A stretch of 64,000 nt of DNA from Acidithiobacillus thiooxidans ATCC 19377 (lineage in GTDB: Bacteria > Pseudomonadota > Gammaproteobacteria > Acidithiobacillales > Acidithiobacillaceae): positions 1,982,501-2,046,500 of the forward strand of contig NZ_CP045571.1 of the NCBI RefSeq assembly GCF_009662475.1, in the 5' to 3' direction. Both the position numbers and the translations under genes were made by a program. Below are positions 1 to 41,602 of this stretch, piece after piece (positions within the stretch are counted from its first letter, which is position 1; each line of letters opens with the position of its first letter). The notes beneath the pieces were generated by a model, which ran no database searches, was not told where the DNA came from, and saw nothing but the letters and a program-made list of their open reading frames with translations.

Positions 1-145
1 ATTCTTCAAAAAAAGCCGAATTCTGCTTGTCACCCTGCCGCTGAAAATCTATTGATGCTTTCATCCACCACCCCGATTCGCCTTCAAACACTGCTTGTCA
101 GTTTAACGCGCTGAACTCATTTTCCCAAACCGGACGTATGCTTTA

Positions 146-174
146 TTGACAAGATACCGTTTGGTCGGTATCTT
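146..174 (+). promoter_or_regulatory. Promoter and operator of the TetR regulator gene
   Basis: A -35 box TTGACA (146-151) and a -10 box TATCTT (169-174) are separated by 17 bases. A perfect 9-bp inverted repeat, AAGATACCG at 151-159 and CGGTATCTT at 166-174, fills the space between them and overlaps the -10 box. This is the expected layout for autorepression by the TetR protein encoded directly downstream. Predicted transcription starts near 181, so the mRNA may have almost no leader before the ATG at 183. Confidence 0.75.
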
Positions 175-182
175 CCAAGCTT

Positions 183-800
183 ATGATGACTATGAGCCAA
201 CGTAAAACGCGCAATCCCGAACAGACCCGCAACGATCTTCTGGATGCTGCTTACCACGAAATTCTGGAATCCGGCTTTCAGGCTGCGAGTCTGGAGCGTA
301 TCCTCGCTAACACTTCCGTAAGCAAAGGGGCGCTTTATCATCATTTTGGTACCAAGCGCGATCTCGGGCTCGCGGTCATTGAAGAAGTGATCGGGCCGCA
401 ACTGGAAGAGCGCTGGTTTACCATGCTCGCCCAACACGATAATCCCATCATTGGTCTGTACAACCTCATTGCAGAAAAAATTTCCCAAGCGGATGAATCC
501 GTCATTCGCTATGGTTGCCCGCTCAACAACCTGATTCAGGAAATGAGTCCTCTGGATGAATCCTTTCGGCAGGGTCTGCAAAAAATCATTGAACGTTGGG
601 TAGAAGTCGTCACACAGGCACTCAAGGAAGGTCAATCCGCAGGTCAGGTACGTCAGGACTCGAATCCCGAGGATATCGCCCTTTATATTGTTGCTTCCAT
701 TGAAGGCTGTGTCGGGCTGGGCAAAAACGCCCAATCCATCGATGCCTACCAACGTTGCCTCCGGCAACTACAAGTTTATATTCAGTCTTTAGCGGTCTGA
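183..800 (+). CDS. TetR/AcrR family transcriptional regulator
   Basis: A 205-residue one-domain repressor. The N-terminal helix-turn-helix is clear at residues 36-66 (SLERILANTSVSKGALYHHF), and the C-terminal half is the variable ligand and dimer domain. No Shine-Dalgarno sequence precedes the ATG cluster at 183, 186 and 192, and the promoter predicts a near-leaderless message, so 183 is kept but 192 is possible. It lies upstream of a dienelactone hydrolase and an old yellow enzyme in the same direction. That recalls NemR controlling nemA, so it probably senses reactive electrophiles and represses itself and the two downstream genes. The ligand is not known. Confidence 0.88.
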   Translation: MMTMSQRKTRNPEQTRNDLLDAAYHEILESGFQAASLERILANTSVSKGALYHHFGTKRDLGLAVIEEVIGPQLEERWFTMLAQHDNPIIGLYNLIAEKISQADESVIRYGCPLNNLIQEMSPLDESFRQGLQKIIERWVEVVTQALKEGQSAGQVRQDSNPEDIALYIVASIEGCVGLGKNAQSIDAYQRCLRQLQVYIQSLAV

Positions 801-854
801 TCCCGTAATAATCCCCCCTTCCCTTTTTTCATGCTCGAATAAGGAGGTAGAGTG

Positions 855-1583
855 ATGTCTGAAATTCATTCCGAATGGCTACAACTGGAAAATGGTCCCC
901 GCGCCTGGTACGCCCGCCCCGGCGGCAACGGCCCGCATCCTGGCGTCGTCATATTTATTGAAGCTTTTGGCGTAAACAGCCATTTTCAGGAAGTAGCCGA
1001 ACGATTTGCCAGGGCGGGATACTGCGCCATCGTCCCAGATTTGTATCATGGCAAGGTGTACGAATATGCCGACTTTGAAAATGCCATCGCGCACCTTAAA
1101 ACCCTGAAAGATGATCTGGCCATGCAGGAAGCGGGGCTGGCCATTGCCGAACTGCAAAAACGTCCCGAAGTCATGAAGCACGCCATCGGCGCTGTCGGCT
1201 TTTGTATGGGCGGCCGCTTTGCGTTCATGGCCAATGCCGTACATGCCGACAAAATCGGCGCGTCCGTCGCCTTTTATGGCGGTGGCATTGCCCCGGATAA
1301 GGATCCGGCCGGACGCCAACCGCTCCTGCATCTGGTCGAGCAGATGCGCGCCCCGCTGCTACTCCTTTACGGGGCCGAAGATCAATCCATCACCCCGGAA
1401 GAACATGGACGCATTGCCGCAGCCCTCAGCACCGCCAAAAAGCGTTATACCCTGACGCTGTTCCCCGGTGCCCCTCACGGGTTTTTTGCCGACCCGCGTG
1501 ACAGCTATCGTCCCGAAGCTGCCGCCGAAGGCTGGCGCCTTACCCTGGATCATTTCAGTCAGCATCTTGGAGGGCAGGCATGA
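855..1583 (+). CDS. Dienelactone hydrolase family protein
   Basis: An alpha/beta hydrolase of 242 residues. The nucleophile elbow GFCMGG carries the catalytic Cys typical of dienelactone hydrolases rather than Ser. The acid residue is probably the Asp in YGAEDQ, and the His is in PHGF. The ATG at 855 is preferred over the GTG at 852 because AAGGAGG at 841-847 is seven bases upstream. The stop codon overlaps the ATG of the next gene, so translation is coupled. Family members open lactone or ester bonds in degradation pathways. Next to an enoate reductase, a role in detoxifying small electrophiles is likely, but the substrate is unknown. Confidence 0.88.
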   Translation: MSEIHSEWLQLENGPRAWYARPGGNGPHPGVVIFIEAFGVNSHFQEVAERFARAGYCAIVPDLYHGKVYEYADFENAIAHLKTLKDDLAMQEAGLAIAELQKRPEVMKHAIGAVGFCMGGRFAFMANAVHADKIGASVAFYGGGIAPDKDPAGRQPLLHLVEQMRAPLLLLYGAEDQSITPEEHGRIAAALSTAKKRYTLTLFPGAPHGFFADPRDSYRPEAAAEGWRLTLDHFSQHLGGQA

Positions 1584-2653
1584 GTCACAAACTGTTCACA
1601 CCCTGGACCCTGCGCAGCATAACGCTGCGCAACCGCATTGTCGTCGCCCCCATGTGTCAGTACTCCACCCCGGACGGGGTAGCCGGTGACTGGCACATGG
1701 TTCACCTCGGCAGCCGCGCGGTGGGTGGCGCCGGACTGGTCATGGCCGAAGCCAGCGCTGTAAGTCCCGAGGGTCGCATTTCTCCGCGCGATCTGGGTAT
1801 CTGGAACGACTCCCAAGCCGAAGCTCTGGCACCCATCGTCCGCTTCATGAAAAAACAGGGGGCCGTAGCTGCCATACAAATTTCCCATGCCGGACGCAAG
1901 GCCTCTACTCAGGCCCCCTTTGCCGGCGGCGCACCTATCGCGCCTGATGCAGAACAGGGTTGGCAACCTTATGGCCCCAGCCCGCTGCCTTTCAGTCCGG
2001 CTCACACGGTACCCGAGGCCATGACTGCTCAGGATATCGAAAAGGTCCGCAAGGATTTTGTGGCTGCTGCACAAAGAGCGCTCCATGCCGGATTTGAAGT
2101 TCTCGAACTGCACATGGCCCATGGTTACCTCCTGCACAGCTTTCTTTCGCCCATCAGTAATCATCGGGATGACGCCTATGGTGGCAGCCTCGAAAACCGG
2201 ATGCGTCTGCCTCTGGAAATCACCGATGCCGTGCGCGCGGTCTGGCCCGACCATCTGCCTCTGTGGGTTCGCATTTCGGCCACAGACTGGGTACCCGGTG
2301 GCTGGGATCTGGAACAATCCGTCGCCCTGGCCAAGCAGTTGCAGGCAAGAGCTGTGGACGTTATTGACTGTAGCAGCGGCGGAATGACCCCTGATGCGGT
2401 CATTCCGGCTGGCCCTGGCTTTCAGACGCCCTTCGCACAACAAATACGCGAACAAACCGGATTACCCACTGTTGCCGTCGGACTGATTACCGAAGCCATG
2501 CAGGCCGAACATATTCTGCTTACAGAACAAGCCGATGGTATCGCCCTTGCCCGGGAATTACTCCGCAATCCTTACTGGCCCCTGCACGCCGCCCGTGAAC
2601 TGGGAGTAGACTTGCCTTGGCCAGAACAATACGATCGGGCCAAATTGCGCTAA
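1580..2653 (+). CDS. NADH:flavin oxidoreductase, old yellow enzyme family
   Basis: A 357-residue FMN-binding TIM barrel. The N-terminal FTPWTLRSITLRNRIVVAPM is typical of the YqjM/XenA-like branch, and HMAHGYLLHSFLSPISNHR contains the conserved substrate and FMN contacts. The family reduces activated C=C bonds of enals, enones and nitro compounds using NAD(P)H. It overlaps the upstream hydrolase gene by four bases (ATGA) and is followed by a strong terminator at 2695-2721. It is therefore the last gene of a TetR-controlled three-gene unit. Confidence 0.9.
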   Translation: MSHKLFTPWTLRSITLRNRIVVAPMCQYSTPDGVAGDWHMVHLGSRAVGGAGLVMAEASAVSPEGRISPRDLGIWNDSQAEALAPIVRFMKKQGAVAAIQISHAGRKASTQAPFAGGAPIAPDAEQGWQPYGPSPLPFSPAHTVPEAMTAQDIEKVRKDFVAAAQRALHAGFEVLELHMAHGYLLHSFLSPISNHRDDAYGGSLENRMRLPLEITDAVRAVWPDHLPLWVRISATDWVPGGWDLEQSVALAKQLQARAVDVIDCSSGGMTPDAVIPAGPGFQTPFAQQIREQTGLPTVAVGLITEAMQAEHILLTEQADGIALARELLRNPYWPLHAARELGVDLPWPEQYDRAKLR

Positions 2654-2694
2654 AACGTCGCTTATCTCTCCACAGGGAGGGGTTAAGTGAATCG

Positions 2695-2721
2695 CCGGGA
2701 TGGGTTGCCATCCCGGTTTTT
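2695..2721 (+). terminator. Rho-independent terminator of the tetR-hydrolase-OYE operon
   Basis: A perfect 9-bp stem (CCGGGATGG at 2695-2703 and CCATCCCGG at 2708-2716) with a 4-base loop is followed directly by five T residues. It separates the oxidoreductase operon from the transporter gene. Confidence 0.85.
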
Positions 2722-2742
2722 ACATTCTGGAGCCACAGACTG

Positions 2743-3663
2743 ATGCCTTCCCCCAAAAAACCGGTGACACTCTGGCCTTTGGCTGCACTGGCCCTGTTGT
2801 CCATAATCTGGGGATATAACTGGGTCGTCATGAAAGTCGCCATAAGCGACTGCCCACCCCTGCTGTTTGCCACTCTGCGCGTTTGGCTAAGTGTCATCGT
2901 CCTGATTCCCCTGATCATCTGGCTGAAAAGACCACTGCGGATGCCCTCAGCCCGCTATATCATTCCCTTCGGCCTGTTGCAAACCACCGGTTTTATTGGG
3001 CTTGCCCTCTGGGCGCTGGAATATGGCGGCGCCGGAAAAACGGCCATTCTGGTCTACATGATGCCGCTTTGGCTGATTGTGTTTGCCTGGCCTCTACTCG
3101 GTGAGAAATTGCACGGATTACAATGGCCCGCCGTGCTATTGGCCCTGTTGGGTCTGATTGCCATTCTGAAGCCCTGGAGTTTCGACGGCGAATGGACTGG
3201 CAGCGTGATTGCACTGATTTCAGGCATTTTGTGGGCCAGTTCCGCCCTCTGGCAAAAGCGTTATGCGCCCCCCGACATGGATTTATTCAACAGTACTTTG
3301 TGGCAAACCATTTTCGGCGGACTCGGGCTGATTGTCATGACCTTGTTTATTGACCCGCTGACGGTTCATTGGACACCCGTATTTGTCGGTGCCCTGCTTT
3401 ATAATGCTATTCCCGGTACTGCTCTGGCCTATTTTCTCTGGGCCTACGCCTTGCAGAAACTGCCCTCGGGAATCGCGGGCATGGGCACCCTGGCAGCGCC
3501 GCTGATTGGCGTCGTTGCCGCCTGGCTGCAATTGGGAGAAACTCCGGGAGGCTGGGAAGGTGTGGGAATGGTCTGCATTTTTGTCGCACTGGCTTTGGTC
3601 AGCTGGCAACACCTGCGCCCCCGTGAACAGGAAAACGCTATTTTGCCAACGGGTCAGGAATAA
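2743..3663 (+). CDS. EamA/DMT-superfamily membrane transporter
   Basis: A 306-residue integral membrane protein with about ten hydrophobic segments in two repeated EamA halves. The first opens with LALLSIIWGYNWVVMKVA and the second with LISGILWASSALWQKRY. The frame is open further upstream, but the ATG at 2743 has CTGGAG in front and lies just after the terminator, so it is the better start. Members export metabolites such as amino acids, but substrates cannot be read from sequence. The gene stands alone between a terminator and a converging gene. Confidence 0.85.
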   Translation: MPSPKKPVTLWPLAALALLSIIWGYNWVVMKVAISDCPPLLFATLRVWLSVIVLIPLIIWLKRPLRMPSARYIIPFGLLQTTGFIGLALWALEYGGAGKTAILVYMMPLWLIVFAWPLLGEKLHGLQWPAVLLALLGLIAILKPWSFDGEWTGSVIALISGILWASSALWQKRYAPPDMDLFNSTLWQTIFGGLGLIVMTLFIDPLTVHWTPVFVGALLYNAIPGTALAYFLWAYALQKLPSGIAGMGTLAAPLIGVVAAWLQLGETPGGWEGVGMVCIFVALALVSWQHLRPREQENAILPTGQE

Positions 3664-3704
3664 ATCGAAAATTTTGGATGTTAAAGTCCCTTTCGCGTCT
3701 GCTC

Positions 3705-4310
3705 TTATTCCAGCATTTTGCGCAATTGCTGACCAGTTGCACGCTTCACTGGTTTTCCATCCACAGGCGAAGCGGGACTGCGCCGGTCTTCATCCAGCGC
3801 AAAAATGACCAGACGAATCTCCGTGTCTGCGTAGTCAATTTTCAGGCAGGGATATTCTTGCGCCGGGGCATCGCCAAAATGCAGGCGCTGCCAGCTTTCT
3901 TCATAGGGCGTTTTCTGATCCATCAAAAAGAAAATGACCGTCTCAGGGGCATCCGCAAATAAATGCAGGGTAATTGCCGCATGGCGCGTAGCCGTACCAT
4001 TCAACACCGGGCCGGTCAGACGCGGCTGAAACACCTCCAGCCACTGCATGGCTTTCAGCGCCCGCTCGCGCAGTTCGCGCAAATCCACCGCATGGGCAGG
4101 TCCATGAAAAAGCTGCAGGCGGGCATGTAATTCTGATTCTATCTCACTGTTATTCGGCCAGTGGTGCTGGGCATCCCCCCCCGCACCCAAACGCCGCGCC
4201 GCTTTTTCCTTGGCTACCCGAAAATCCACGACGCCCTCCTCCGCCATGATCCGCGCCGACTCCACTGCCAGCAAACGGCGTAACCGATGGGGTTGCTGTG
4301 ACTTGCTCAT
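3705..4310 (-). CDS. Conserved proteobacterial hypothetical protein
   Basis: A soluble 201-residue protein. The N-terminal part is rich in Arg and Lys (RLRRLLAVESARIMAEEG, then AKEKAARRLG), and SPVDGKPVKRAT lies near the C terminus. From memory these resemble a widespread gammaproteobacterial family of unknown function, sometimes labelled nucleotidyltransferase-like. No catalytic motif can be assigned. It converges on the DMT gene and diverges from the tRNA-Leu promoter. GGAG lies about nine bases upstream of the ATG on the minus strand. It belongs to the chromosomal side of the island junction. Confidence 0.7.
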   Translation of the reverse strand: MSKSQQPHRLRRLLAVESARIMAEEGVVDFRVAKEKAARRLGAGGDAQHHWPNNSEIESELHARLQLFHGPAHAVDLRELRERALKAMQWLEVFQPRLTGPVLNGTATRHAAITLHLFADAPETVIFFLMDQKTPYEESWQRLHFGDAPAQEYPCLKIDYADTEIRLVIFALDEDRRSPASPVDGKPVKRATGQQLRKMLE

Positions 4311-4327
4311 GCTCGATACTCCGATGA

Positions 4328-4356
4328 TTGTCGTCCGGGACTATTCCGCATAAGAT
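4328..4356 (+). promoter_or_regulatory. Promoter of tRNA-Leu
   Basis: TTGTCG (4328-4333) and TAAGAT (4351-4356) are 17 bases apart, nine bases before the mature tRNA 5' end. A GC-rich discriminator follows, as is usual for stable-RNA promoters. Confidence 0.6.
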
Positions 4357-4365
4357 AGCGCGTAA

Positions 4366-4450
4366 GCGAGAGTGGCGGAATTGGTAGACGCACTGGATTT
4401 AGGTTCCAGCGCCGCGCGGCGTGGGAGTTCGAGTCTCCCCTTTCGCACCA
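4366..4450 (+). tRNA. tRNA-Leu, anticodon UAG
   Basis: An 85-base gene with encoded CCA. The acceptor stem GCGAGAG pairs with CTTTCGC through one G-U pair. The anticodon stem is CTGGA/TCCAG around the loop TTTAGGT, giving anticodon TAG. A long variable arm (GCGCCGCGCGGCGTG) is typical of class II tRNA-Leu, and the T loop GTTCGAGTC is present. From 4392 onward it serves as the left attachment site of the island, and a second copy of this part lies at 41541-41602. Confidence 0.96.
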
Positions 4451-4453
4451 AAT
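4392..4453 (+). repeat. attL: left copy of the island attachment site
   Basis: These 62 bases cover the anticodon stem-loop through the CCA end of tRNA-Leu plus three bases. They recur in the same orientation at 41541-41602 with one difference (G at 4416, A at 41565). Integration left a complete tRNA gene at this end. Confidence 0.92.
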
Positions 4454-4489
4454 ACTTAGAGTCAATTCGCAAATTCAAATTGATTTTAC

Positions 4490-4541
4490 GCTGCACATAT
4501 GCTGCACTAAGCTTCCGGATTGATTGCAGCGGGAGTGCAGC
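4490..4541 (+). promoter_or_regulatory. Candidate integrase arm-type binding sites
   Basis: GCTGCAC occurs at 4490-4496 and 4501-4507, an 11-base period, and again as its complement GTGCAGC at 4535-4541 just before the integrase start. The same pair with the same 11-base period occurs at 41403-41420 near the other island end. Repeats of this type at both ends suggest recombinase or excisionase arm sites. Confidence 0.5.
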
Positions 4542-5525
4542 ATGGCGACTATAAATTCACGGGAAGACCAGGATGGCGTCACGATTGGATGGCAAGCCAT
4601 CGTGCGCAAAAAGGGGTATCCGAGCCAGTCGAAAACTTTTCGGACCAAACGGGATGCGGAAGCGTGGGCACGGCTTACAGAATCTGCTATGGAACGCGGG
4701 TTGTGGCAGAATCAGAGCGATGCGGACAGCACAACGCTGGCTGATGCTTTGGATCGTTATGGAAGAGAAGTTTCTAGCCTGAAGAAATCAGGCAAGATTG
4801 AACTGTACCGTATCGGCAACCTCAAGACAGACAAAATCGCCAAACTGCACTTATCACGAATTCGCGGCGCTGACCTCGCAGAATATCGAGATCGGCGATT
4901 GAAGGCGGGTCTTTCTGATAGCTCCGTTCGCCTGGAACTCGCCATCATCTCCAATCTGTACACGGTCGCCATGAAGGAGTGGCGTATGGAAGGGTTACGC
5001 AATCCGGTATTGTCAGTGCGAAAACCATCGCCAGGTAAGGCACGGGACCGACGGTTGTCACCTATTGAAGAAAAAAAACTATTGGGCGAATGTACTCCAT
5101 CATTAAAGGCTATCATCCTATTCGCTCTGGAAACCGGGATGCGGCGGGGGGAGATACAGAAGTTACTCTGGAAAGATGTTGACTTTACCAAATGTACTGC
5201 CCAACTACTTGACACTAAAAATGGGGAAGATCGGCTCATTCCTCTGTCCAGCCGCGCCATTGCCGTCCTGAAAAAGTTACCGCGCAACATCAACGGCAAG
5301 GTTTTTCCAGGCACAGATATTTCCCATTCATTTGCCGCCGCCTGCAAACGCGTTGAAATAAAAGATCTGCGTTTCCACGACCTCCGTCACGAGGCCACCA
5401 GTCGCTTCTTTGAGAAAAGACTTAATCCTGTGCAGGTTGCCGCCATCACTGGACACAAGACCTTGCAGATGCTGAAACGCTATACGCACTTGAGGGCAGA
5501 AGATCTGGCGAAGTTGCTGGAGTGA
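4542..5525 (+). CDS. int: Tyrosine recombinase (integrase) of the tRNA-Leu island
   Basis: A 327-residue phage-type integrase. The first 55 residues form an arm-binding-like region, followed by a SAM-like core-binding domain and the catalytic domain. Catalytic motifs are visible: ETGMRRGEI (Arg I), FHDLRHEATSRF (His-x-x-Arg), ITGHKTLQMLKRYTH (His and the nucleophilic Tyr). The ATG at 4542 has GGGAG six bases upstream, and the frame is also open further upstream. The gene begins 92 bases after the tRNA and reads into the island, the standard position for such integrases. It should catalyse insertion and excision at the 62-base repeat. Confidence 0.93.
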   Translation: MATINSREDQDGVTIGWQAIVRKKGYPSQSKTFRTKRDAEAWARLTESAMERGLWQNQSDADSTTLADALDRYGREVSSLKKSGKIELYRIGNLKTDKIAKLHLSRIRGADLAEYRDRRLKAGLSDSSVRLELAIISNLYTVAMKEWRMEGLRNPVLSVRKPSPGKARDRRLSPIEEKKLLGECTPSLKAIILFALETGMRRGEIQKLLWKDVDFTKCTAQLLDTKNGEDRLIPLSSRAIAVLKKLPRNINGKVFPGTDISHSFAAACKRVEIKDLRFHDLRHEATSRFFEKRLNPVQVAAITGHKTLQMLKRYTHLRAEDLAKLLE

Positions 5526-5571: not shown

Positions 5572-7950
5572 CTACTCCCAATCAAACGTTGACACAATCG
5601 CAGGTGCTGGTAGCGAAATTGATGCGGATTCATCCCCACTCTCTTTCCGCATATGCACCAACGGATCATGCGGATCCGACAAAGCCCCCGCTTTCCATGC
5701 ATCGGCGATGTCTTTGGTGCCGGCTGGTGGCATCCAGGCAAACACCTTTTCGCAACCGAGCTTCCAGATTTTATCGATCTGCTGTTCGTGGGCGGCATCG
5801 GTTTTGGCCTGGGTTTTGGTATTTTTCTCGCGTTCCATAGCCACATAAACTGTGTCTGCCTCTTTCAGCATCTTCTGCACATGCGTCCGGTCTAACGAGC
5901 GGACATTCGCCCCGCCAGAGACAATGACGCAAGGGATAGGCTTCCGACGGGTCTTGTACCAATCGATAACAGCCAGCGCGTCCATACCGCCTTCCACAAC
6001 CCAGACAGAACCTCGATTATCCCCATGCCAGATGGCTGGATAGGAGTTATCGGAATGCTTTACGTCCAACTTTGTCAGTGGTTTCTTCCCATCCCAGGAC
6101 GGAATAGATTGGGTCAGCCTGAGGGTCATGGATCGCAATTGACCATCCCCCCTGCCGCAAAAGGCTGCAGAGGGGATCCCTTTGTAATCCACAAAGCGCA
6201 GGAACCCTGCCCCTTGGGCACACCGGATGGTTTTTTGGCTAATACCGCGTTCCTGCAAATAGTGCATGACCGGATCAGAATTCCGACAGACCGGTGGAGC
6301 AACAGGCAGTTGATGAGATAGGACCGTTCTTTTTTCCGCTTTTTTCGTGATCGTTGAACCTGAAAGATCGGCCAAAGCCTGCTGAAAACTCAATCCCATC
6401 TCTTTCACGCAAAAATCGATGGGATCACCACCATCAACACCAGCCCAGTCACACCAGACAAAATGACCATCCTTTTCTTGTGTTACGCGGTAACGGTCAT
6501 CCACCACCCAATCCTTCACCCCGTCTTTTTTGATGGGCAAGCCAATAGACTGCAGGTACGCCACCAGATCAGCCATGTGGGCGGCATCACGCAAACTTGG
6601 ATAATCAGCCTGTATATCAGGTGAATCTTGCTTTTGTTCTTTAGCCCGACGCTTTGCCGCAGACGCTTTTTTGAAGCGATCATTCCAATTCGTTACCGTA
6701 ACAATCCCAGAATCATCCCTATCACGACCGCTGCCAGTATCGCCGCTGATCCTGCCGCTATCCAGAACTGTTGCCGTATCTTTTGAATCTCCTCCCGTAA
6801 AGCCTTTGCTTCCTGCTTCCAGTAATTCAATTCCCGATTCGATTGCATCGCTTTCTGGCGAGATTCCCTGGCCATTTTCACCGACCGTTTCACTTTGTCC
6901 TGCGAAAGCGTTTGCATCTCTTTCTGGATGGCGTCCACGGCGGCCTGTATCAGAGGCTGCATGATCGCTCTCTGCGTATCCAAACCCTGATCCAGGGCTT
7001 GAGCCATTTCCTCCATCGGCCCCAAGCTCTCGTCTATTTGATTCGCCATCGCTTCCGGCAACCGCGATAGCTCCTGCCGCATCTGCTGGATTTGCCGGAT
7101 CATCTCCGGCGCATCGATCAGCAAGGAAACGTGCTGCTCGGTCTTTTGCTGCGCGTATTCTTTCAATATCTCTGTCTTGCTCATAGGAAAGCCCCTTCTT
7201 CTGCATATTGCTCAATCTATAACCACGGCCGAGGCTATTTGAGGTGAAGCGATAATCACCGTAGTGATAGGCAAAGCCGGACAGTTTTCCGGTGGTGGCC
7301 AGGTTCGGCTGAACGATGACGCCCAGCGTTTCAAGATCCTCGATGAACTGCGTCACGGTCCGCTTTTTCTCCAGGAGCGCATCCAGAGCCTGCTGCATGA
7401 ACAGGCGTGCAGGTATCTCGCCTTTTTCTATCGCGATGAAATCCCCTTTGGTCGGGGCCTTCTTGTGAGTGAGGGCATTTTCTGGCTCCAGTAAAGAGGA
7501 AGGTTCCACCTTCACCAGATTGAAATCCTGCTCTATTTTCCGGACAGCGGCCTCTCCACGTCGGTAATCGTTGGAATCGGAAACCACGGAACCATCGCTG
7601 TTGATGCGGGAAAACAGGATATGGATATGGTCGCCATGACAGACGGTGGCGTAGGCATCCATACCCATATCTGAGCACCATTGATCACTGATCATGGCCC
7701 ATTCCCGGTCAGACAAAACCCGATCCCCTTCAGGAACCCGTAGGGAAACATGTCCCACGGCTTTCTGTAGATTCGGGCGCATCCGGCGCAAAACCCCTAT
7801 TTCTGCCGCCAGTTCTCGGGCACTACGTCCCGAAAGCGTGCCGCCGATCAGGTCATGCCTTGGCCGCACGTCGCCGTTATGGTCTTTTTCAGCCAGCAGA
7901 TAGTTCGCCAATCCGCGTGCACCGGTGCCTTTGATGATTTTTTCAATCAT
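5572..7950 (-). CDS. mobA: MobA-type relaxase fused to a primase/TOPRIM domain
   Basis: A 792-residue mobilisation protein. The N-terminal relaxase region (about 1-290) has a candidate catalytic Tyr in GLANYLL and the metal-binding CHGDHIHILFSR motif. A low-complexity linker rich in Gly, Asp and Ser follows. The C-terminal half contains a Cys/Trp-rich DUF3991-like segment and a TOPRIM-like core (WVVEGGMDALAVIDW, then CVIVSGGANVR). Relaxase-primase fusion is known from IncQ plasmids such as RSF1010. The start at 7950 overlaps the end of mobC by eight bases. It nicks oriT and carries the strand during transfer by a helper conjugation system. A separate gene, mobB, is nested in another frame over the linker. 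Confidence 0.87.
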   Translation of the reverse strand: MIEKIIKGTGARGLANYLLAEKDHNGDVRPRHDLIGGTLSGRSARELAAEIGVLRRMRPNLQKAVGHVSLRVPEGDRVLSDREWAMISDQWCSDMGMDAYATVCHGDHIHILFSRINSDGSVVSDSNDYRRGEAAVRKIEQDFNLVKVEPSSLLEPENALTHKKAPTKGDFIAIEKGEIPARLFMQQALDALLEKKRTVTQFIEDLETLGVIVQPNLATTGKLSGFAYHYGDYRFTSNSLGRGYRLSNMQKKGLSYEQDRDIERIRAAKDRAARFLADRCAGDDPANPADAAGAIAVAGSDGESNRRELGADGGNGSSPGSGFGYAESDHAASDTGRRGRHPERDANAFAGQSETVGENGQGISPESDAIESGIELLEAGSKGFTGGDSKDTATVLDSGRISGDTGSGRDRDDSGIVTVTNWNDRFKKASAAKRRAKEQKQDSPDIQADYPSLRDAAHMADLVAYLQSIGLPIKKDGVKDWVVDDRYRVTQEKDGHFVWCDWAGVDGGDPIDFCVKEMGLSFQQALADLSGSTITKKAEKRTVLSHQLPVAPPVCRNSDPVMHYLQERGISQKTIRCAQGAGFLRFVDYKGIPSAAFCGRGDGQLRSMTLRLTQSIPSWDGKKPLTKLDVKHSDNSYPAIWHGDNRGSVWVVEGGMDALAVIDWYKTRRKPIPCVIVSGGANVRSLDRTHVQKMLKEADTVYVAMEREKNTKTQAKTDAAHEQQIDKIWKLGCEKVFAWMPPAGTKDIADAWKAGALSDPHDPLVHMRKESGDESASISLPAPAIVSTFDWE
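6693..7184 (-). CDS. mobB: MobB-like protein nested inside mobA
   Basis: A 163-residue protein encoded entirely within mobA on the same strand but in another frame. It has a long charged helical and coiled-coil region (residues 20-135, with repeated QQMRQELSR and KMARESRQKAMQ patterns) and one C-terminal membrane segment (AAGSAAILAAVVIGMILGLL). MobB of R1162/RSF1010 is likewise nested in mobA and is reported to stabilise the relaxosome and aid contact with the membrane transfer machinery. AAGGGG lies upstream of its ATG. The mobA frame across this stretch is a low-complexity linker, as expected when the overlapping frame carries the constraint. Confidence 0.8.
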   Translation of the reverse strand: MSKTEILKEYAQQKTEQHVSLLIDAPEMIRQIQQMRQELSRLPEAMANQIDESLGPMEEMAQALDQGLDTQRAIMQPLIQAAVDAIQKEMQTLSQDKVKRSVKMARESRQKAMQSNRELNYWKQEAKALREEIQKIRQQFWIAAGSAAILAAVVIGMILGLLR

Positions 7951-8332
7951 CGTCTGCCTCCACGCCCAGCAAAGCCAAACGGACGGCACGAATTGCCTTT
8001 ATCAGCTGCGGAATCAAATCACGGTCCCACGCATGGGCCTGGCCTGCATTGATGGCCCATTGGTACTGGTTGGCATTGGCCGCCAACCTTGCCAATTCTT
8101 GCCATACCTGAAGATTGATCGGCGGCACTGGCGGGGCGGGTAATTTGGCATCCGTAATACAGAGCCGCATGTATTCTCCGACCCGCAATCCCTGCGCAGC
8201 GGCCTTGGCTTTCAGGTCGGCCAGCTCGATCGGAGAAAGCCAGACTTCGCGCCTGATCGTCCGATGCACATCATCCGGCAATCGAGGACGACCCCCACGC
8301 TTTTTGATCGGATTCTGAATCTCATCCGTCAT
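7943..8332 (-). CDS. mobC: MobC-like relaxosome accessory protein
   Basis: A 129-residue protein with a basic N terminus (KKRGGRPRLPDDVHRTIRRE) followed by LSPIELADLKAKAAAQGLRVGEYMR. This resembles the ribbon-helix-helix-like MobC proteins that bind oriT and help melt it. It overlaps the start of mobA by eight bases, so the two are co-translated. GGAGG is ten bases upstream of its ATG. A possible oriT lies about 100 bases upstream. Confidence 0.78.
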   Translation of the reverse strand: MTDEIQNPIKKRGGRPRLPDDVHRTIRREVWLSPIELADLKAKAAAQGLRVGEYMRLCITDAKLPAPPVPPINLQVWQELARLAANANQYQWAINAGQAHAWDRDLIPQLIKAIRAVRLALLGVEADDD

Positions 8333-8912
8333 GGCAAAACCTCCGTGGCCATCATCGCCGACCCTGCAACCGGAGGGCGCAGGTAAAGATGATGGCGGGG
8401 GTCAAGGGGGTTCACCCCATTGCGAGACGTTATCACCCGGCAAACGTAGTGCGCGGGGGGATAACATGGCTCGCTCCTCACCGAATACCCCCGCATTCTC
8501 AACGATTCCCCCAATGCGAACAGACCGATTCCTTGCAAAAGATGTTTTTCACTATCCCTGAGGGTGCATCCCTTCCACCCACTGATCACCGAATCTGCCC
8601 GCCTGTCTTTCTGTGCTTTGGAATCGCCATGGGGATTGGCAATGTCGCGCTGTTGCCCGTTCGCTCTTCTTCCCCGCCGGTAATACCCTTGGGGGTCGGC
8701 GCCATCGGCGCCGGGGGGAAAGCCACCGGATGACCGCACCATCATGTCCGACCAGGAAAGATCTCCAGGAATATCGTAAAAGCTGAGCGGGGTATGAACA
8801 CCATTTAAGAACTGAGCGGCCAATATGGGGAAAGTAGCGGTCCCTCGTCTGTAGCCCATGGTTGGACGGAGCATTGCGCCTGAAACGCCTAACACAATGA
8901 TGTTACCCATCC
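8333..8912. other. Non-coding stretch upstream of mobC, with candidate oriT
   Basis: No reading frame here looks like a real protein. A near-perfect inverted repeat (8429-8465) is the main structured element. The remainder is G/C-rich, with short runs such as GGCGCCATCGGCGCC near 8697-8712. It is probably the transfer-origin and control region of the mobilisation genes. Confidence 0.5.
8429..8465. other. oriT: Candidate oriT
   Basis: GTTATCACCC (8429-8438) and GGGGGATAAC (8456-8465) form an inverted repeat with one mismatch. The loop contains GTAGTGCGC, similar to but not the same as the TAAGTGCGC core of IncQ nick regions. It lies upstream of mobC-mobA, a usual oriT position. The arrangement, with the core inside the repeat, differs from RSF1010, so this is tentative. 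Confidence 0.35.
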
Positions 8913-9689
8913 TCATAGGTCACCTCCCTTTTTTCGGGAAATGAGACGCGGACGGCCACGTCGGCGTGGGCTGGGCACTACGGGAGTTTGCGAATATGAC
9001 GGAAGAGCATTTTGGGAGAAACGCTCTGCAGTGAGGGCGCTTTGTTCAATCTGTTCGATCAACCCAATGGGGAATCGGGGACCGATTGGGAGTTTATGCG
9101 GAGTGGGGAGTTTGCCCAGGCAAACCTGATTGCGGAGGGTTTTTTCCGAACAGGCCCATCGGTGCGCGAGATCGGCAAAGCTCAGAAAGCATGGAGGAAC
9201 GATGATAGCGCGAGGCGGCTCTCCGCCCGCATCCCCTCCAGGGTCATCGGAGCTGGCTTTTTTGGCCGATTGTCCACCACCCTGGCGTTTTATGCCGGAC
9301 TGGCGGCCCTGGGCATGGGAACCGTTGAGTCGAACACCTACCGAACCTTTTTGGAGCAGGCCTTTAGGGAACGTTTGCTCATGAAGCGTTCGCATCGATC
9401 CAGGTAAAGTTACTGCTGCTCTGGCGATCTTGGTCGCGTAAACCCAATAAGCATTGGTGGCATTATTAATCTCCCAATCAAACTGCTTGGTTCTAAATAC
9501 ATGCCAGATCATACCAGCTGGATAAGCAACAATGAAATTGCCAAAAATACCTAAACCCATCCAGCCAAACCACTGCGGGAGGTGTAAATGGAGGAAATGA
9601 GCGCCCATCACAATCACAAAAAGCATTCCAGCCAGATAAATGCTTCCCGTGATATAGAGGCCACGAATCGTGGGTTTTTGTGTTTTCAT
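8913..9689 (-). CDS. Chimeric protein: small membrane protein fused to an HTH DNA-binding protein
   Basis: A 258-residue frame starting at the ATG at 9689, with GAAGGAAC as ribosome site. Residues 1-95 resemble a small inner-membrane protein with two hydrophobic segments (SIYLAGMLFVIVMGAHF and GIFGNFIVAYPAGMIW). From about residue 96 (near 9404) the character changes to a charged linker. A helix-turn-helix region follows (FADLAHRWACSEKTLRNQVC), then a basic tail (RRRGRPRLISRKKGG). The second half resembles small plasmid or phage DNA-binding regulators. The join is probably an accidental deletion fusion. Whether it makes a stable protein is uncertain. Confidence 0.5.
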   Translation of the reverse strand: MKTQKPTIRGLYITGSIYLAGMLFVIVMGAHFLHLHLPQWFGWMGLGIFGNFIVAYPAGMIWHVFRTKQFDWEINNATNAYWVYATKIARAAVTLPGSMRTLHEQTFPKGLLQKGSVGVRLNGSHAQGRQSGIKRQGGGQSAKKASSDDPGGDAGGEPPRAIIVPPCFLSFADLAHRWACSEKTLRNQVCLGKLPTPHKLPIGPRFPIGLIEQIEQSALTAERFSQNALPSYSQTPVVPSPRRRGRPRLISRKKGGDL

Positions 9690-13021: not shown

Positions 13022-13648
13022 GAGCTATACTCGAAAGTGGTGTACGGGCGCGTTACAACTGGCTTGAATGAGGTGGCGTACTGTTGCTACAAAGGGTTTC
13101 CGACTCAAAGAGCAACATAAGGAGTACGCCGTGGAAAAGAATACCGTAATAGCAGGTGGGATGGGAGAGTTGGGTCTGGGCATTGAAGGGATACTTCGAC
13201 GCGCGGCACGCTCTCTGATTGAGCAGGCCATAGAGGCAGAGGTGGCGGTATTGCTGGAAGAATTTGCGACGGTGCGGATGGTTGATGGGCGTCAGGCGGT
13301 CGTGCGTAATGGGCATCTGCCGGAGCGCGAGATCATGACCGCTCTGGGTCCGGTACCCGTCAAAGTACCCAAGGTGCGGGACCGCTCAGGATCGGGGATC
13401 AAATTCAATTCGGTACTGGCGCCTCCGTATGTACGCAAATCGCGAACGGTAGCCGCTACAGTACCTTGGCTCTATCTGCATGGGGTGTCTTCCGGCCACA
13501 TGCAGGAAGCCCTTTCCATTTTGCTGGGTGATGAGGCCAAGGGACTTTCACCTGCGGTGTTGGGACGTCTCAAGGCGGAGTGGGCGCAAGAGTATGCCCA
13601 TTGGCAACACCGCTCCCTACAGGGAAAGCGCTATGCTTACTGGTGGGT
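13022..13648 (+). mobile_element. Truncated IS256-family element (left 627 bp)
   Basis: Nearly identical to the left end of the complete IS256 element at 35978-37392, starting at the same terminal GAGCTAT and ending abruptly at 13648. The transposase frame begins at GTG 13131. It keeps the N-terminal domain but is cut at YWWV, just before the first catalytic Asp, so it cannot be active. It lies in the same orientation as the complete copy, so the two form direct repeats around 22 kb of cargo. Confidence 0.92.
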
Positions 13649-33966: not shown

Positions 33967-35977
33967 ATGCTACCCTGGTTATTGCGTGCCTGGCTTTTGT
34001 TTGTGGTCATTGTGGTGCTGGCTGGAGAAGGCCTGGCTTATGAAACATGGCAGGATGTTTGTCAGGAATACAGCACCAACTTGCGGGTGCTGGCAGCCGC
34101 TGTGGCGGATGGCACGCATTTATTTCTCAAGGGGACCCAGTCTTCATTGGCCATGCTGGGTCAGGACACGGGCACAGGAGCCGATGGCACGCCTCTGGCG
34201 ATTCACGAAAAATTGCAGGACTACCTGGTCCTCAATCCCGATTTCAACAGTGTCGGTGTGCGTACGGCAGGTGACGGAGTGGTGGCTGCCGGGATGGACA
34301 AGGGACTGCTGCGGACCTTGCTTTCACTTCCGGCATCGCCGGATGCCCGATCCCGGATTACGGACCAGCAGCGGCAACTGATCCAGCGTTGTAGACAGGC
34401 TTCCGACCTTTGCGTCGGTCCTCCTTTGGCGGTGCGTAATCCGGAACACCCCCAACATCCACACTGGGTGGTACCGCTTTTCCTGGGGGCACAAGGGGAT
34501 CCCCTACCGACATTCCGTAGTGACCAACATGGTGGCCCTGCTGCCCTTGCAGCACGGCCAATTCCCTTTTTGGCACAATCTGCAGCTTCCTGCCTTGAGT
34601 TCGGTCTTTCTGCTGCGCCGGGATGGCTTTCTGGAAAGCCTCTATCCGCTGCCCACACAAAGCCCCTTTGGTACACGCCAAAACGGCATTGCCGTCCAGT
34701 CCATCCGGGCGCACCCCCAGGCCCGCTCTGCCAGCTTTTATGGCCTGGCTACGGCGTTCAATCAATGGCGTCTCGGGGCCTGGAACCAGGTGCGAGGCTA
34801 TCCGCTGGTAGCCGGTGTGGGGCTGCCACGTTCCTTTCTGCTGGCCGCCTGGTGGAATCGGATGACCGGACCTTTCGCGGCCATGCTGGCTCTGCTGCTG
34901 CTTTCTACCTTCGGCTATTGGACCTTTCGCCGCATCGGCGAAGACCGGCAGCGTGAAAGATCGGCCCATGATCTGAGGTTGTGGGAGGCCAAGGAGCGGG
35001 CGGAAGTCACCCTCCATTCCATTGGTGACGGGGTGATAACGACCGACACCCAAGGTCGGGTCACAGATATCAATCCCGTAGCTGAATCCATGCTGGGTTC
35101 TGCACGCTCAGACCTTCTGGGGAAACCGCTCGAAACGGTTTTCCACATCGCCCATGAGGGGGATCACCTTCCGGTAGAAAACCCCATCCGCAGAGTCTTG
35201 CAGGAAGGCCGGATCGTGGGGCTGGCCAACCATACGGTTCTCCTGCGCGCGGATGGTCAGGAGATCGCCATTGAAGATTCTGCAGCACCGATTCACGGAC
35301 GGGATGGTCAGGTGTTGGGCGCCGTACTGGTCTTTCATGATGTCACGGAACGGCGTCGTTTGACCGAGCACCTGGCTTATCAGGCGCATCACGATGATTT
35401 GACCGGCTTGCCCAACCGCAAGTGGTTTCTGGAGCAGCTCCGCCAGGCCACAGAGACGCAGCCCCTGCCGGGAGACCTCCTCCTGGTTGGCATTCTCGAT
35501 CTGGATGGATTCAAACAGGTCAATGATCGCTGGGGACACGACCAAGGGGATCAACTGCTTTGTACGGTAGCACAACGGGTCCGTGAAACGCTGCGGCCTG
35601 AAGATAGCGTCAGCCGCCTGGGCGGGGATGAGTTCGGGCTGCTGCTGCCCCATATGCACGATCTGGAAGACGCCCAGCATCTCGCCCACCGGCTGATCCA
35701 GGCGTTGAACCAGCCTATTGAGATGGACACGCAGGTGGCGAACGTCTCAGCCAGTATCGGATGGACGATTCTCCCCGGGGATACGGGTGATGCCCCGCAG
35801 ATATTGCGGCATGCGGATCTCGCGCTTTACGCGGCCAAAGCCCGGGGTCGCAATCAGTATTGTTTTTATGAAAAAACCCTGGATGTTGAACAAGAACAGC
35901 TGATGGAGATGTTGGCGATGACCCAGGAAGCGCTTGAAGCCCAGAACTTGGTCATGTACTACCAGCCGGTAGTGACC
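33967..35977 (+). pseudogene. GGDEF-EAL regulator, 5' part (sensor, PAS, GGDEF), frameshifted
   Basis: The gene begins with a membrane segment (LLRAWLLFVVIVVLAGEGLA) and a periplasmic sensor region. A one-base insertion in the C-run at 34501-34504 then moves the frame. The second frame continues with another membrane segment (PFAAMLALLLLSTFGYW), a PAS domain (LHSIGDGVITTDTQGRVTDI) and an intact GGDEF domain (SRLGGDEFGLLLPH). It stops where an IS256 element inserted at 35978. Without both lesions the protein would be an inner-membrane sensor making or degrading cyclic di-GMP. Confidence 0.88.
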
Positions 35978-37392
35978 GAGCTATGCTCGAAAGTGGTGTA
36001 CGGGCGCGTTACAACTGGCTTGAATGAGGTGGCGTACTGTTGCTACAAAGGGTTTCCGACTCAAAGAGCAACATAAGGAGTACGCCGTGGAAAAGAATAC
36101 CGTAATAGCAGGTGGGATGGGAGAGTTGGGTCTGGGCATTGAAGGGATACTTCGACGCGCGGCACGCTCTCTGATTGAGCAGGCCATAGAGGCAGAGGTG
36201 GCGGTATTGCTGGAAGAATTTGCGACGGTGCGGATGGTTGATGGGCGTCAGGCGGTCGTGCGTAATGGGCATCTGCCGGAGCGCGAGATCATGACCGCTC
36301 TGGGTCCGGTACCCGTCAAAGTACCCAAGGTGCGGGACCGCTCAGGATCGGGGATCAAATTCAATTCGGTACTGGCGCCTCCGTATGTACGCAAATCACG
36401 AACAGTAGCCGCTACAGTACCTTGGCTCTATCTGCATGGGGTGTCTTCCGGCCACATGCAGGAAGCCCTTTCCATTTTGCTGGGTGATGAGGCCAAGGGA
36501 CTTTCACCTGCGGTGTTGGGACGTCTCAAGGCGGAGTGGGCGCAAGAGTATGCCCATTGGCAACACCGCTCCCTACAGGGAAAGCGCTATGCTTACTGGT
36601 GGGTAGACGGTATTTATACGAACCTCCGTGCGGAGGAGGATCCGCGTATCTGCCTGCTGGTGATTATCGGCGTGACGGCAGAGGGCAAGAAAGAGCTGGT
36701 CAGTGTCAGTGACGGCCTGCGCGAATCCAAAGCTTCCTGGCTGGAGATTCTGCGTGACCTGCAGGCGCGCGGTCTGGAGGCGGCCCCTTTGCTCGCCATT
36801 GGGGATGGTGCCATGGGGTTTTGGGCCGCACTGGATGAAGCCTATCCCGAAACTGGTCAGCAACGCTGCTGGGTGCATAAGACCGCCAACATTCTCAACG
36901 AACTTCCCAAAGCCCAACAGAGCAAAGCCAAGGCAGCGTTGCAGGAAATCTGGATGGCCGCCAATCGCCAGGCTGCGGAAAAAGCACTGGACGTGTTTGT
37001 GCGCAATTACCAGGCAAAGTATCCCAAGGCCGTGGCTAAACTGGAAAAAGATCGGGCTGAATTGCTCGCTTTCTATGATTTTCCAGCCGAACACTGGCGG
37101 CATATCCGGACCACCAATGCCATTGAGTCCACCTTCGCTACGGTACGCCACCGGACTACCCGGACGAAGAACTGTGTATCACGCAGCAGCTTTCTGGGAT
37201 TGGGTTTCAAGATGCTGCAGCAGGCTGAAAAACGCTGGATTGGGATTTATGCTCCAGAGAAAGTCCTGCAGCTTTTTGCAGGGGTGAAATTTATCGATGG
37301 CTTACCGGCTAACCTCACCCTGCCGGATGATCAACAGACCGCCGCCTGATCTATGTCAGAAAATGCTCATACACCAGATTTGACTATAGCTC
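35978..37392 (+). mobile_element. IS256-family insertion sequence, complete (1415 bp)
   Basis: Ends GAGCTATGCTCGAAAGTGGT (left) and, read inward from the right, GAGCTATAGTCAAATCTGGT form imperfect inverted repeats. The 9-base target GTAGTGACC is duplicated at 35969-35977 and 37393-37401. The insertion lies inside the GGDEF-EAL gene. Removing it with one target copy restores the frame exactly (VVT then RPAPSASPEQ). Confidence 0.95.
36087..37349 (+). CDS. IS256-family transposase
   Basis: A 420-residue mutator-type transposase. The GTG at 36087 has AAGGAG upstream; an ATG at 36024 without a ribosome site is less likely. Catalytic residues are visible in YWWVDGIYTNLR (Asp), LLAIGDGAMGFWAALDEA (Asp) and TNAIESTFATVRHRT (Glu). 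It is intact and probably active. Confidence 0.93.
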   Translation: MEKNTVIAGGMGELGLGIEGILRRAARSLIEQAIEAEVAVLLEEFATVRMVDGRQAVVRNGHLPEREIMTALGPVPVKVPKVRDRSGSGIKFNSVLAPPYVRKSRTVAATVPWLYLHGVSSGHMQEALSILLGDEAKGLSPAVLGRLKAEWAQEYAHWQHRSLQGKRYAYWWVDGIYTNLRAEEDPRICLLVIIGVTAEGKKELVSVSDGLRESKASWLEILRDLQARGLEAAPLLAIGDGAMGFWAALDEAYPETGQQRCWVHKTANILNELPKAQQSKAKAALQEIWMAANRQAAEKALDVFVRNYQAKYPKAVAKLEKDRAELLAFYDFPAEHWRHIRTTNAIESTFATVRHRTTRTKNCVSRSSFLGLGFKMLQQAEKRWIGIYAPEKVLQLFAGVKFIDGLPANLTLPDDQQTAA

Positions 37393-37401
37393 GTAGTGAC
37401 C

Positions 37402-38490
37402 CGGCCTGCCCCTTCTGCGTCACCGGAGCAGGGCGTGATTGGTTTTGAGGCCCTGATCCGCTTGCAGCATCCCCAACGGGGGCTGCTCACGCCCGCTGTG
37501 TTCGCCGAAGCGCTGGACCATCCCCGCCTGGCCCGTCGGATTGGCTGCTTTGTATTGGATGCGGTCCTGTCCCAGGGAGAACAGTGGCACCAGGCCGGGC
37601 TTCCCTTACGCCTGTCGCTGAATATCAGCGCCCGGCATCTGCTGGATCCCGAGTTTCTGAATGACTTGCAGTGCGCTCTGGCTGCACATCCCGGGATAGC
37701 CCCGGCGTATTGCGAAATTGAAGTCACCGAAAGTGCCCCCATGCTGGATTTTCAGAAGGCTCAGGAAACACTCCAGCACTGTAATGCCCTGGGTCTACGC
37801 ATCGCCCTGGATGATTTCGGAACGGGGAATGCTTCCTTGAGCTATCTGCAGAAACTGCCTGCCCAGACCATCAAGATTGACCAGAGTTTTGTCCTGGACA
37901 TGCTCAATGATCCTCGTGACTTTGCCATTGTTGCTGGCGTCGTAATGACCGCCCGCATGCTGGGTCTGGAGGTCATTGCCGAAGGCGTGGAAACCGTCGG
38001 GCATTTACAGTTGCTGGAGGCTCTGGACTGCCCGGCCCTGCAGGGCTATCTGTTTGCCAAACCGATGCCCGCAGAGGCCGTGCCAGCCTGGGTAAAGGCG
38101 TTTAACATAATAAATTACATCGGTAATTCTGCTGCACCACGCAATCACCTCATGGGTATCACGGATACAGGGCTGTTGGGCGCGCACCAGATACGCGTAC
38201 AAGAATCCATTCAGTACCTCCAGGGGAAGGGCTGTCTGCCGGAGCGGATCTTGGGCCGCGATGATGCAGAACATTGTCATCTGGCCCTGTGGTTGAACCA
38301 GCTGCCCGACCGCGCCGCTTTGCCGGTCGACGTGGATCAGCTCCATCACCGCCTGCACCAACTGCTAAGAGATCATGTCGGTCCACCGGGCAGTCCGCAA
38401 GCGCGGCAATTAGCTCAGGAGCTGCTGGAAACCAATGCCCAGCTGATAGATGTGTTACACCGCTTTCTGGGGCATCCCCATGTTCGGTAG
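37402..38490 (+). pseudogene. GGDEF-EAL regulator, 3' part (EAL and zinc-binding-like tail)
   Basis: Continues the interrupted regulator: the EAL signature GFEALIRLQHPQRGLLTP, RLSLNISARHL, FCEIEVTES-like and the metal motif LRIALDDFGTGNASLSYL are intact. A C-terminal helical region with DAEHCHLALWLNQ resembles a chemoreceptor zinc-binding domain. A frame with a possible start at 37396 is open, so a free EAL protein might be made, but no ribosome site is evident. Confidence 0.85.
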
Positions 38491-41540: not shown

Positions 41541-41602
41541 ACTGGATTTAGGTTCCAGCGCCGCACGGCGTGGGAGTTCGAGTCTCCCCTTTCGCACCAA
41601 AT
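41541..41602 (+). repeat. attR: right copy of the island attachment site
   Basis: A 62-base copy of the 3' part of tRNA-Leu (4392-4453) with one difference. It lacks the 5' 26 bases of the tRNA and so is not a gene. It marks the right end of the 37.15 kb island. Confidence 0.92.

Follow-up and report, generated by a model that had tools for sequence, protein, structure and literature searches.

A reading frame nested within mobA

Does the linker of a chromosomal relaxase also encode a second protein, and to which mobilization systems would that protein be related? The question is raised by a locus of Acidithiobacillus thiooxidans ATCC 19377. Within the 64,000-nucleotide stretch analyzed (hereafter the window), a frame of 163 codons with an ATG start (mobB, positions 6693–7184, minus strand) lies wholly inside the mobA ORF, in the +1 frame relative to mobA, and covers mobA codons 256–419. 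The initial annotation had placed a second gene here, and the frame proved to be present as described and to be a real gene. The sequence AAGGGG is found 7 nt upstream of its ATG. The product is predicted to be helical, and residues 144–162 form a C-terminal hydrophobic segment with a mean Kyte-Doolittle value of 2.42, in keeping with the membrane segment first proposed; the accompanying coiled coil is plausible, the AlphaFold model (two helices, residues 3–23 and 25–162) being of low confidence (mean pLDDT 65.2, pTM 0.26) and judged too weak for a fold search. When synonymous codons of mobA were permuted in 2000 shuffles, a +1 ORF at least as long appeared in 25%, and the place of mobB stayed open in 11%. 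Taken alone, the length of the frame is thus not significant. What lies beyond chance is the substitution pattern, together with the conservation of frame, start and hydrophobic segment in relatives.

The mobA ORF (5572–7989, minus strand), whose start is more likely the ATG at 7950 (792 aa), encodes a MOBP relaxase domain (PF03432), the linker that overlaps mobB and a weakly Toprim-like C-terminal part. Its product had been called a relaxase-primase; the relaxase half of this name stands, whereas for the primase half Pfam returned only Toprim_2 and DUF3991 matches, both below their cut-offs, and no RepB-type primase domain. The adjacent mobC gene (7943–8332, minus strand) runs 8 bases into mobA, counted from the likely start of the latter, and encodes a NikA-like relaxosome accessory protein (PF21983, 3.8e-10). 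A candidate oriT core, GAGCGAGCCATGTTATCCCCCC (8455–8476, minus strand), was recognized by eye about 120 nt upstream of mobC; it has AGC(A/G)AG and its place before mobC in common with two related loci (L005 and L008, also by eye) and with the IncQ-3 oriT given in an excerpt of PMC7557826. A long ORF (8329–8916, minus strand) spans the candidate oriT and overlaps the mobC start; it is open in locus L004 too, and its Pfam match is sub-threshold.

All three mob genes lie on one strand and adjoin a tyrosine integrase (4524–5525, plus strand; PF00589, 2.2e-25) beside a tRNA-Leu (4366–4450, plus strand) that serves as attachment site. A direct repeat of 37 bp at the end of the tRNA (4417–4453, plus strand) recurs exactly at 41566–41602 (plus strand), the putative other att site, and the two delimit an island of about 37.1 kb (4417–41602). 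From this content of integrase, att repeats and relaxase we class the element as an integrative mobilizable element. DNA identity to A. marinus SH, taken per 500 bases, is 0.74–0.83 over positions 1–4000, 0.86 over 4001–4500 and 0.89–0.96 from 4501 on, and this rise at the tRNA suggests that the element was transferred when the species had already separated. A Pfam scan of 10 cargo ORFs found no secretion genes. Matches to the VirB4 family (PF03135) occur at three loci of the host genome, all outside the window; these could belong to helper elements supplying type IV secretion.

The island cargo includes thiol-disulfide exchange genes (DsbD, thioredoxin-like), a sigma-70-family factor, a PQQ-repeat protein, and an MbnB/TglH-type RiPP enzyme beside a DUF2063 protein. 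The frame of a GGDEF-PAS protein (34520–36076) ends just inside a transposase-like ORF (36024–37349); the next ORF (37396–38490) resembles an EAL protein by eye, and the GGDEF-PAS and EAL-like frames may be parts of one sensor gene that an insertion sequence has interrupted. The first part of the transposase-like ORF is found again at 13068.

Selective constraint moves to the nested frame

A mobA match was found in 10 of the 96 genomes searched, own genome included, and a long match in six (own, G016, G009, G004, G006 and G007), all of one genus, Acidithiobacillus. In each of these six long copies a nested +1 frame starts at mobA codon 256 or 262, is preceded by a purine-rich stretch before its ATG, and encodes a hydrophobic segment at or near the C-terminus (a 30-residue tail follows it in L008). 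No stop codon breaks the frame in any of the other five long copies. Both the start and the hydrophobic segment recur in relatives whose MobB identity is 31–60%. The genus and family also hold fragmentary mobA copies (L009–L018); the five of these that were searched for a mobB frame (L009, L010, L011, L013 and L015, as distinct from L012, L014, L016, L017 and L018) yielded none.

The initial annotation had predicted that constraint would shift to the mobB frame within 6693–7184, and the codon positions and dN/dS ratios bear this out. In the comparison with A. marinus SH, mobA codon positions 1/2/3 differed 17/8/10 times in 162 overlap codons, as compared to 8/6/25 in 254 codons upstream and 16/25/55 in 369 codons downstream; against G009 the corresponding counts were 69/45/42 in 160 overlap codons, 47/25/132 in 254 codons upstream and 125/89/208 in 370 codons downstream. 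Substitutions in the overlap therefore move from mobA position 3 to position 1, which is the wobble position of mobB (Fisher test, position 1 versus 3, inside versus outside the overlap: p = 1.5e-4 for A. marinus SH and 4.6e-8 for G009). The shift is weaker in more distant pairs (L006, p = 0.0017; L008, p = 0.012; L007, p = 0.10). In sliding windows of 80 codons, position 1 exceeded position 3 only where the windows lay within or overlapped mobB, namely at codons 281–400 against A. marinus SH and 241–440 against G009; in two windows straddling the mobB ends in the A. marinus SH comparison, position 1 was not above position 3 (9 versus 12; 3 versus 9).

The ratio dN/dS in the MobA frame was 0.23 upstream, 1.06 in the overlap and 0.26 downstream against A. 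marinus SH, and 0.11, 0.88 and 0.13 against G009, while the MobB frame gave 0.31 and 0.16, respectively; such ratios are biased by overlapping frames, and identity in the unused third frame and a simulation with constraint on mobB only served as controls. Across four pairs, identity in the overlap was nearly the same in the MobA frame as in the third frame (0.86/0.85, 0.43/0.39, 0.36/0.31 and 0.25/0.25) and only slightly above the simulation (0.86 versus 0.83; 0.43 versus 0.38), yet the MobA frame contains no stops where the third frame has 24–26. The MobA linker is thus largely a passenger that must stay open, and the idea that it is shaped by the overlapping gene is supported by the near-third-frame identity and the rise in dN/dS. 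In short, the mobB frame is conserved and under purifying selection, and the MobA linker beneath it has hardly any constraint beyond the need to remain open. At its N-terminal end MobB is encoded over a conserved part of MobA, and the conservation of these first residues can therefore stem from MobA.

MobB is likely a remote relative of Mobilization_B

The island MobB has the layout of the Mobilization_B family (PF17511), being nested in mobA in the +1 frame with a C-terminal hydrophobic segment. Pfam gave it no PF17511 match at E ≤ 1, and the MobB proteins of plasmids L027, L031 and pDN1 matched above the cut-off. Profile comparison with hhalign scored the island MobB at 96.6% against the L027/L031/pDN1 group and at 95.2% against the nested frame of pGNB2 and its relatives, with none of 60 column shuffles as good in either case. 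Without the first 12 residues the values were 83% (again 0 of 60 shuffles as good) and 90%, respectively. In a single-profile search of 1999 scored sequences, the L027 MobB ranked 1 and that of L031 ranked 3, a scrambled decoy taking the place between; pDN1 stood at rank 6 (three decoys above it), L024 at 10, L026 57, ColE1 324 and L023 552, so the nested frames of L023 and L026 were not picked out. Taken together, these profiles suggest a likely remote homology of the island MobB to Mobilization_B.

Membership in the MbeB_N family was rejected: Pfam returned no match of the island MobB to the ColE1 MbeB family (PF04837), and hhalign against MbeB gave 0.5%. A link between the two proteins would rest on frame and position only.

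Other searches added no relatives. With MobB, tblastn found no match in plasmids at E ≤ 1; a DNA-level search with mobA-mobC found none in plasmids, and MobA peptide patterns found none in viral contigs. A MobB profile run against 398 genomes drawn from the phylum recovered the own genome only, so MobB is rare or too divergent for such a search. Among PDB sequences the MobB profile reached only a ribosomal protein at E 0.36, and MobA had no match at E ≤ 0.01.

Comparison with known nested systems

Nesting of mobB in mobA is already known for IncQ1, as an excerpt of PMC2200642 describes, and a figure legend in PMC8953408 describes both the ColE and the IncQ nested plans. The island is a further, chromosomal MOBP case of this plan, with a well-measured shift of constraint. 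The initial annotation had pointed to the same plan in IncQ plasmids; it does occur there, in pDN1 and in IncQ-3, but is not IncQ-specific, being found in ColE1 mbeB too. Ancestry shared with IncQ-type mobilization likewise holds in a broad sense, whereas at closer range the island relaxase is MOBP (PF03432) where that of IncQ1 is MOBQ (PF03389), and its MobB lacks a PF17511 match.

The nearest plasmid relatives of the element are those of the pGNB2 type, named IncQ-3 in an excerpt of PMC7557826 and IncQ2 in PLSDB, and not IncQ1. Like the island, pGNB2 has a MOBP relaxase with a weakly Toprim-like C-terminus, an upstream mobC, an oriT-like core, and a nested +1 frame with a hydrophobic segment, here of 227 aa from mobA codon 258. 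It differs in being a plasmid with repA and repC, and in its longer MobB, which has a tail beyond the hydrophobic segment. This frame is unnamed in the pGNB2 record, and the mobilization module of IncQ-3 is given as mobA and mobC, without mention of mobB, nesting or overlap, in the excerpt of PMC7557826. Matches to the pGNB2 nested frame are found in 51 plasmid records, with at least 80% of the frame covered in 50; among the 51 is KX946994, at 98.2% identity, a plasmid that the same excerpt names IncQ-3. The nested frame was read as intact in two IncQ-3 resistance plasmids (L001 and L002). In the own genome, the IncQ RepC of pGNB2 had 0 matches (a search run without a positive control) and IncQ RepA two weak matches of 32%, far outside the window.

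Plasmids L027 and L030 (IncP-typed) and L031 (untyped) share with the island a NikA-like MobC that is 38–43% identical (38% for L027) and a mobB in the +1 frame, at codon 248, whose product is annotated by PGAP as 'IncQ-type mobilization protein MobB'. Like the island, L027 has a MOBP relaxase; in contrast, L027 and L031 carry a RepB-type primase (PF16793 in L027) in place of the Toprim-like part, and a MobB that matches PF17511. The three plasmids are not labelled 'IncP-6-like' here: in PLSDB the type of L027 and L030 goes no further than IncP, and an excerpt of PMC4785139 gives a different gene set for the IncP-6 module.

In IncQ1 pDN1, mobB is also nested in mobA, in the +1 frame at codon 250, and has a hydrophobic segment, but the relaxase is MOBQ with a RepB primase. 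The mobC of RSF1010 is transcribed in the opposite direction (PMC2200642, in excerpt), unlike that of the island. In ColE1, mbeB is nested in mbeA in the same +1 frame and starts within a Y-E-Q stretch; ColE1 differs in its PF04837 MbeB, in having no primase domain match and in also carrying mbeD. A Citrobacter plasmid likewise combines a nested mobB frame with a relaxase that has no primase match. Judged by their domain matches, then, nested mobB frames appear in relaxases with a Toprim-like, a RepB-type or no recognized primase. Another mix of the same parts is seen in the Komagataeibacter plasmid pGXY040 (L023), which PLSDB lists with an IncQ1 replicon and a MOBP relaxase, and whose nested frame lies between the relaxase and a RepB-type primase.

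Position of the nested start

We compared 16 loci that had been picked for a MobB-like start and include some close relatives (L001/L002; window/L004), so that agreement on the start is a biased count. In 13 of them mobB starts at mobA codons 248–262; the exceptions are ColE1 (230), L025 (303) and L026 (164), where the codons of L025 and L026 are counted from the first Met of the mobA ORF (by the record's own start, mobB of L026 is at codon 250). In 14 of the 16, the start codon of mobB straddles the Tyr codon (TAT-G) of a MobA Y-x-x-x-R-D stretch; at this place pDN1 has H-E-R-D-R-Q and ColE1 has Y-E-Q-S-F-A. Among 14 further relaxases, two (L033, which is near L024, and the Gloeobacter locus L043) carry at this position a +1 frame that encodes a hydrophobic segment; for two more (L036 and L042) the record stops short of the full position, and the other ten, including pTC-F14 (L021), have no such +1 frame of at least 90 aa with a hydrophobic segment. 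Two of these ten, the cyanobacterial L029 and L034, contain the Y-x-x-x-R-D stretch but no nested gene, and the stretch therefore belongs to MobA in its own right. In the Gloeobacter plasmid L043, the +1 frame of 203 aa covers relaxase codons 258–460, past the annotated mobA end.

In seven loci (L001, L023, L027, L028, L030, L031 and L022) the mobA frame is open, yet no whole mobA is listed; at the mobB position their gene tables have mobB, MbeB or a hypothetical protein, and all but L022 also list a C-terminal piece of mobA. Since the plasmid gene table is by design not complete, the missing mobA may reflect how the overlap was annotated.

A possible role and origin of MobB

The explanation that we consider probable as a whole is that mobB is a coding gene overprinted on the MobA linker, between the relaxase domain and the C-terminal part, in an integrative mobilizable element; its product would likely be a membrane-anchored helper in relaxosome delivery. 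In this model mobA and mobB would be translated from one mRNA, with mobB initiated internally at its own ribosome-binding site. MobB would be anchored in the inner membrane by its C-terminal helix, its N-terminal part would touch the relaxase, and it would assist in handing the MobA-oriT relaxosome over to a type IV secretion system that another element provides. The delivery role is proposed by analogy to R1162 MobB; transport signals of the R1162 relaxase/primase reportedly require MobB, according to the title of a 2007 study by Parker and Meyer.

A natural hybrid, L006 (noted under L006 / L020), bears on the proposed contact. Residues 1–280 of its MobA resemble L007 (0.60–0.75 per 40 residues), and after residue 400 the protein resembles the window MobA (0.46–0.85); by eye, the N-terminal 25 or so residues of its MobB are L007-like and the next part is window-like. 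This places the crossover within mobB, so that the MobB N-terminus travels with the relaxase domain, and such co-inheritance suggests that the two may be in contact.

Other readings of the overlap were weighed against the same data. That the +1 frame is open merely because of the low-complexity composition of the MobA linker, with no protein made, would agree with the frequency of equally long frames in the synonymous shuffles; however, a chance ORF would not draw purifying selection, nor would codon-position pattern and dN/dS reverse within it or its start and hydrophobic segment recur at the MobB identities given above, and on this constraint pattern we reject it as very improbable. We give just as little credence to the view that the overlap matters mainly as a segment of MobA, acting as a flexible linker or as a secretion signal, and that mobB is no more than a minor passenger: the MobA frame is free of stops and its identity slightly exceeds the mobB-only simulation, but that identity is close to the unused third frame, and the constraint lies in the MobB frame. 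Somewhat more room, though still an unlikely outcome, is left for a real mobB gene that serves not transport but another purpose, such as entry exclusion or the regulation of copy number or transfer. ColE1 mbeD, also nested in mbeA, is annotated as a mobilization/exclusion protein, and the MobB sequence offers no catalytic clue; against this, MobB has profile similarity to Mobilization_B proteins, and the hybrid moves its N-terminus together with the relaxase.

More speculative is the origin of the arrangement. Tentatively, and with more doubt than belief, we propose that the nesting of mobB predates the relaxase-primase fusions and does not depend on them. A single overprinting event, with its start across the Tyr codon of Y-x-x-x-R-D, would then be the source of the nested genes in MOBP islands and in IncQ-3, IncP-typed and IncQ1 plasmids, and even of ColE1 mbeB; MobA C-terminal partners would later have been swapped around it, with recombination inside the overlap as in L006.

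The locus adds a chromosomal, MOBP-type member to the nested mobB systems, and it draws attention to IncQ-3 resistance plasmids, in which the nested frame is intact (as read in L001 and L002) and for which PMC7557826, in excerpt, counts only mobA and mobC. That gene tables in public use contain mobB without an intact mobA for such plasmids may also be a consequence of the overlap. Above all, it provides a case of overlapping genes in which the direction of constraint can be measured: the hidden frame is protected, and the annotated frame drifts.
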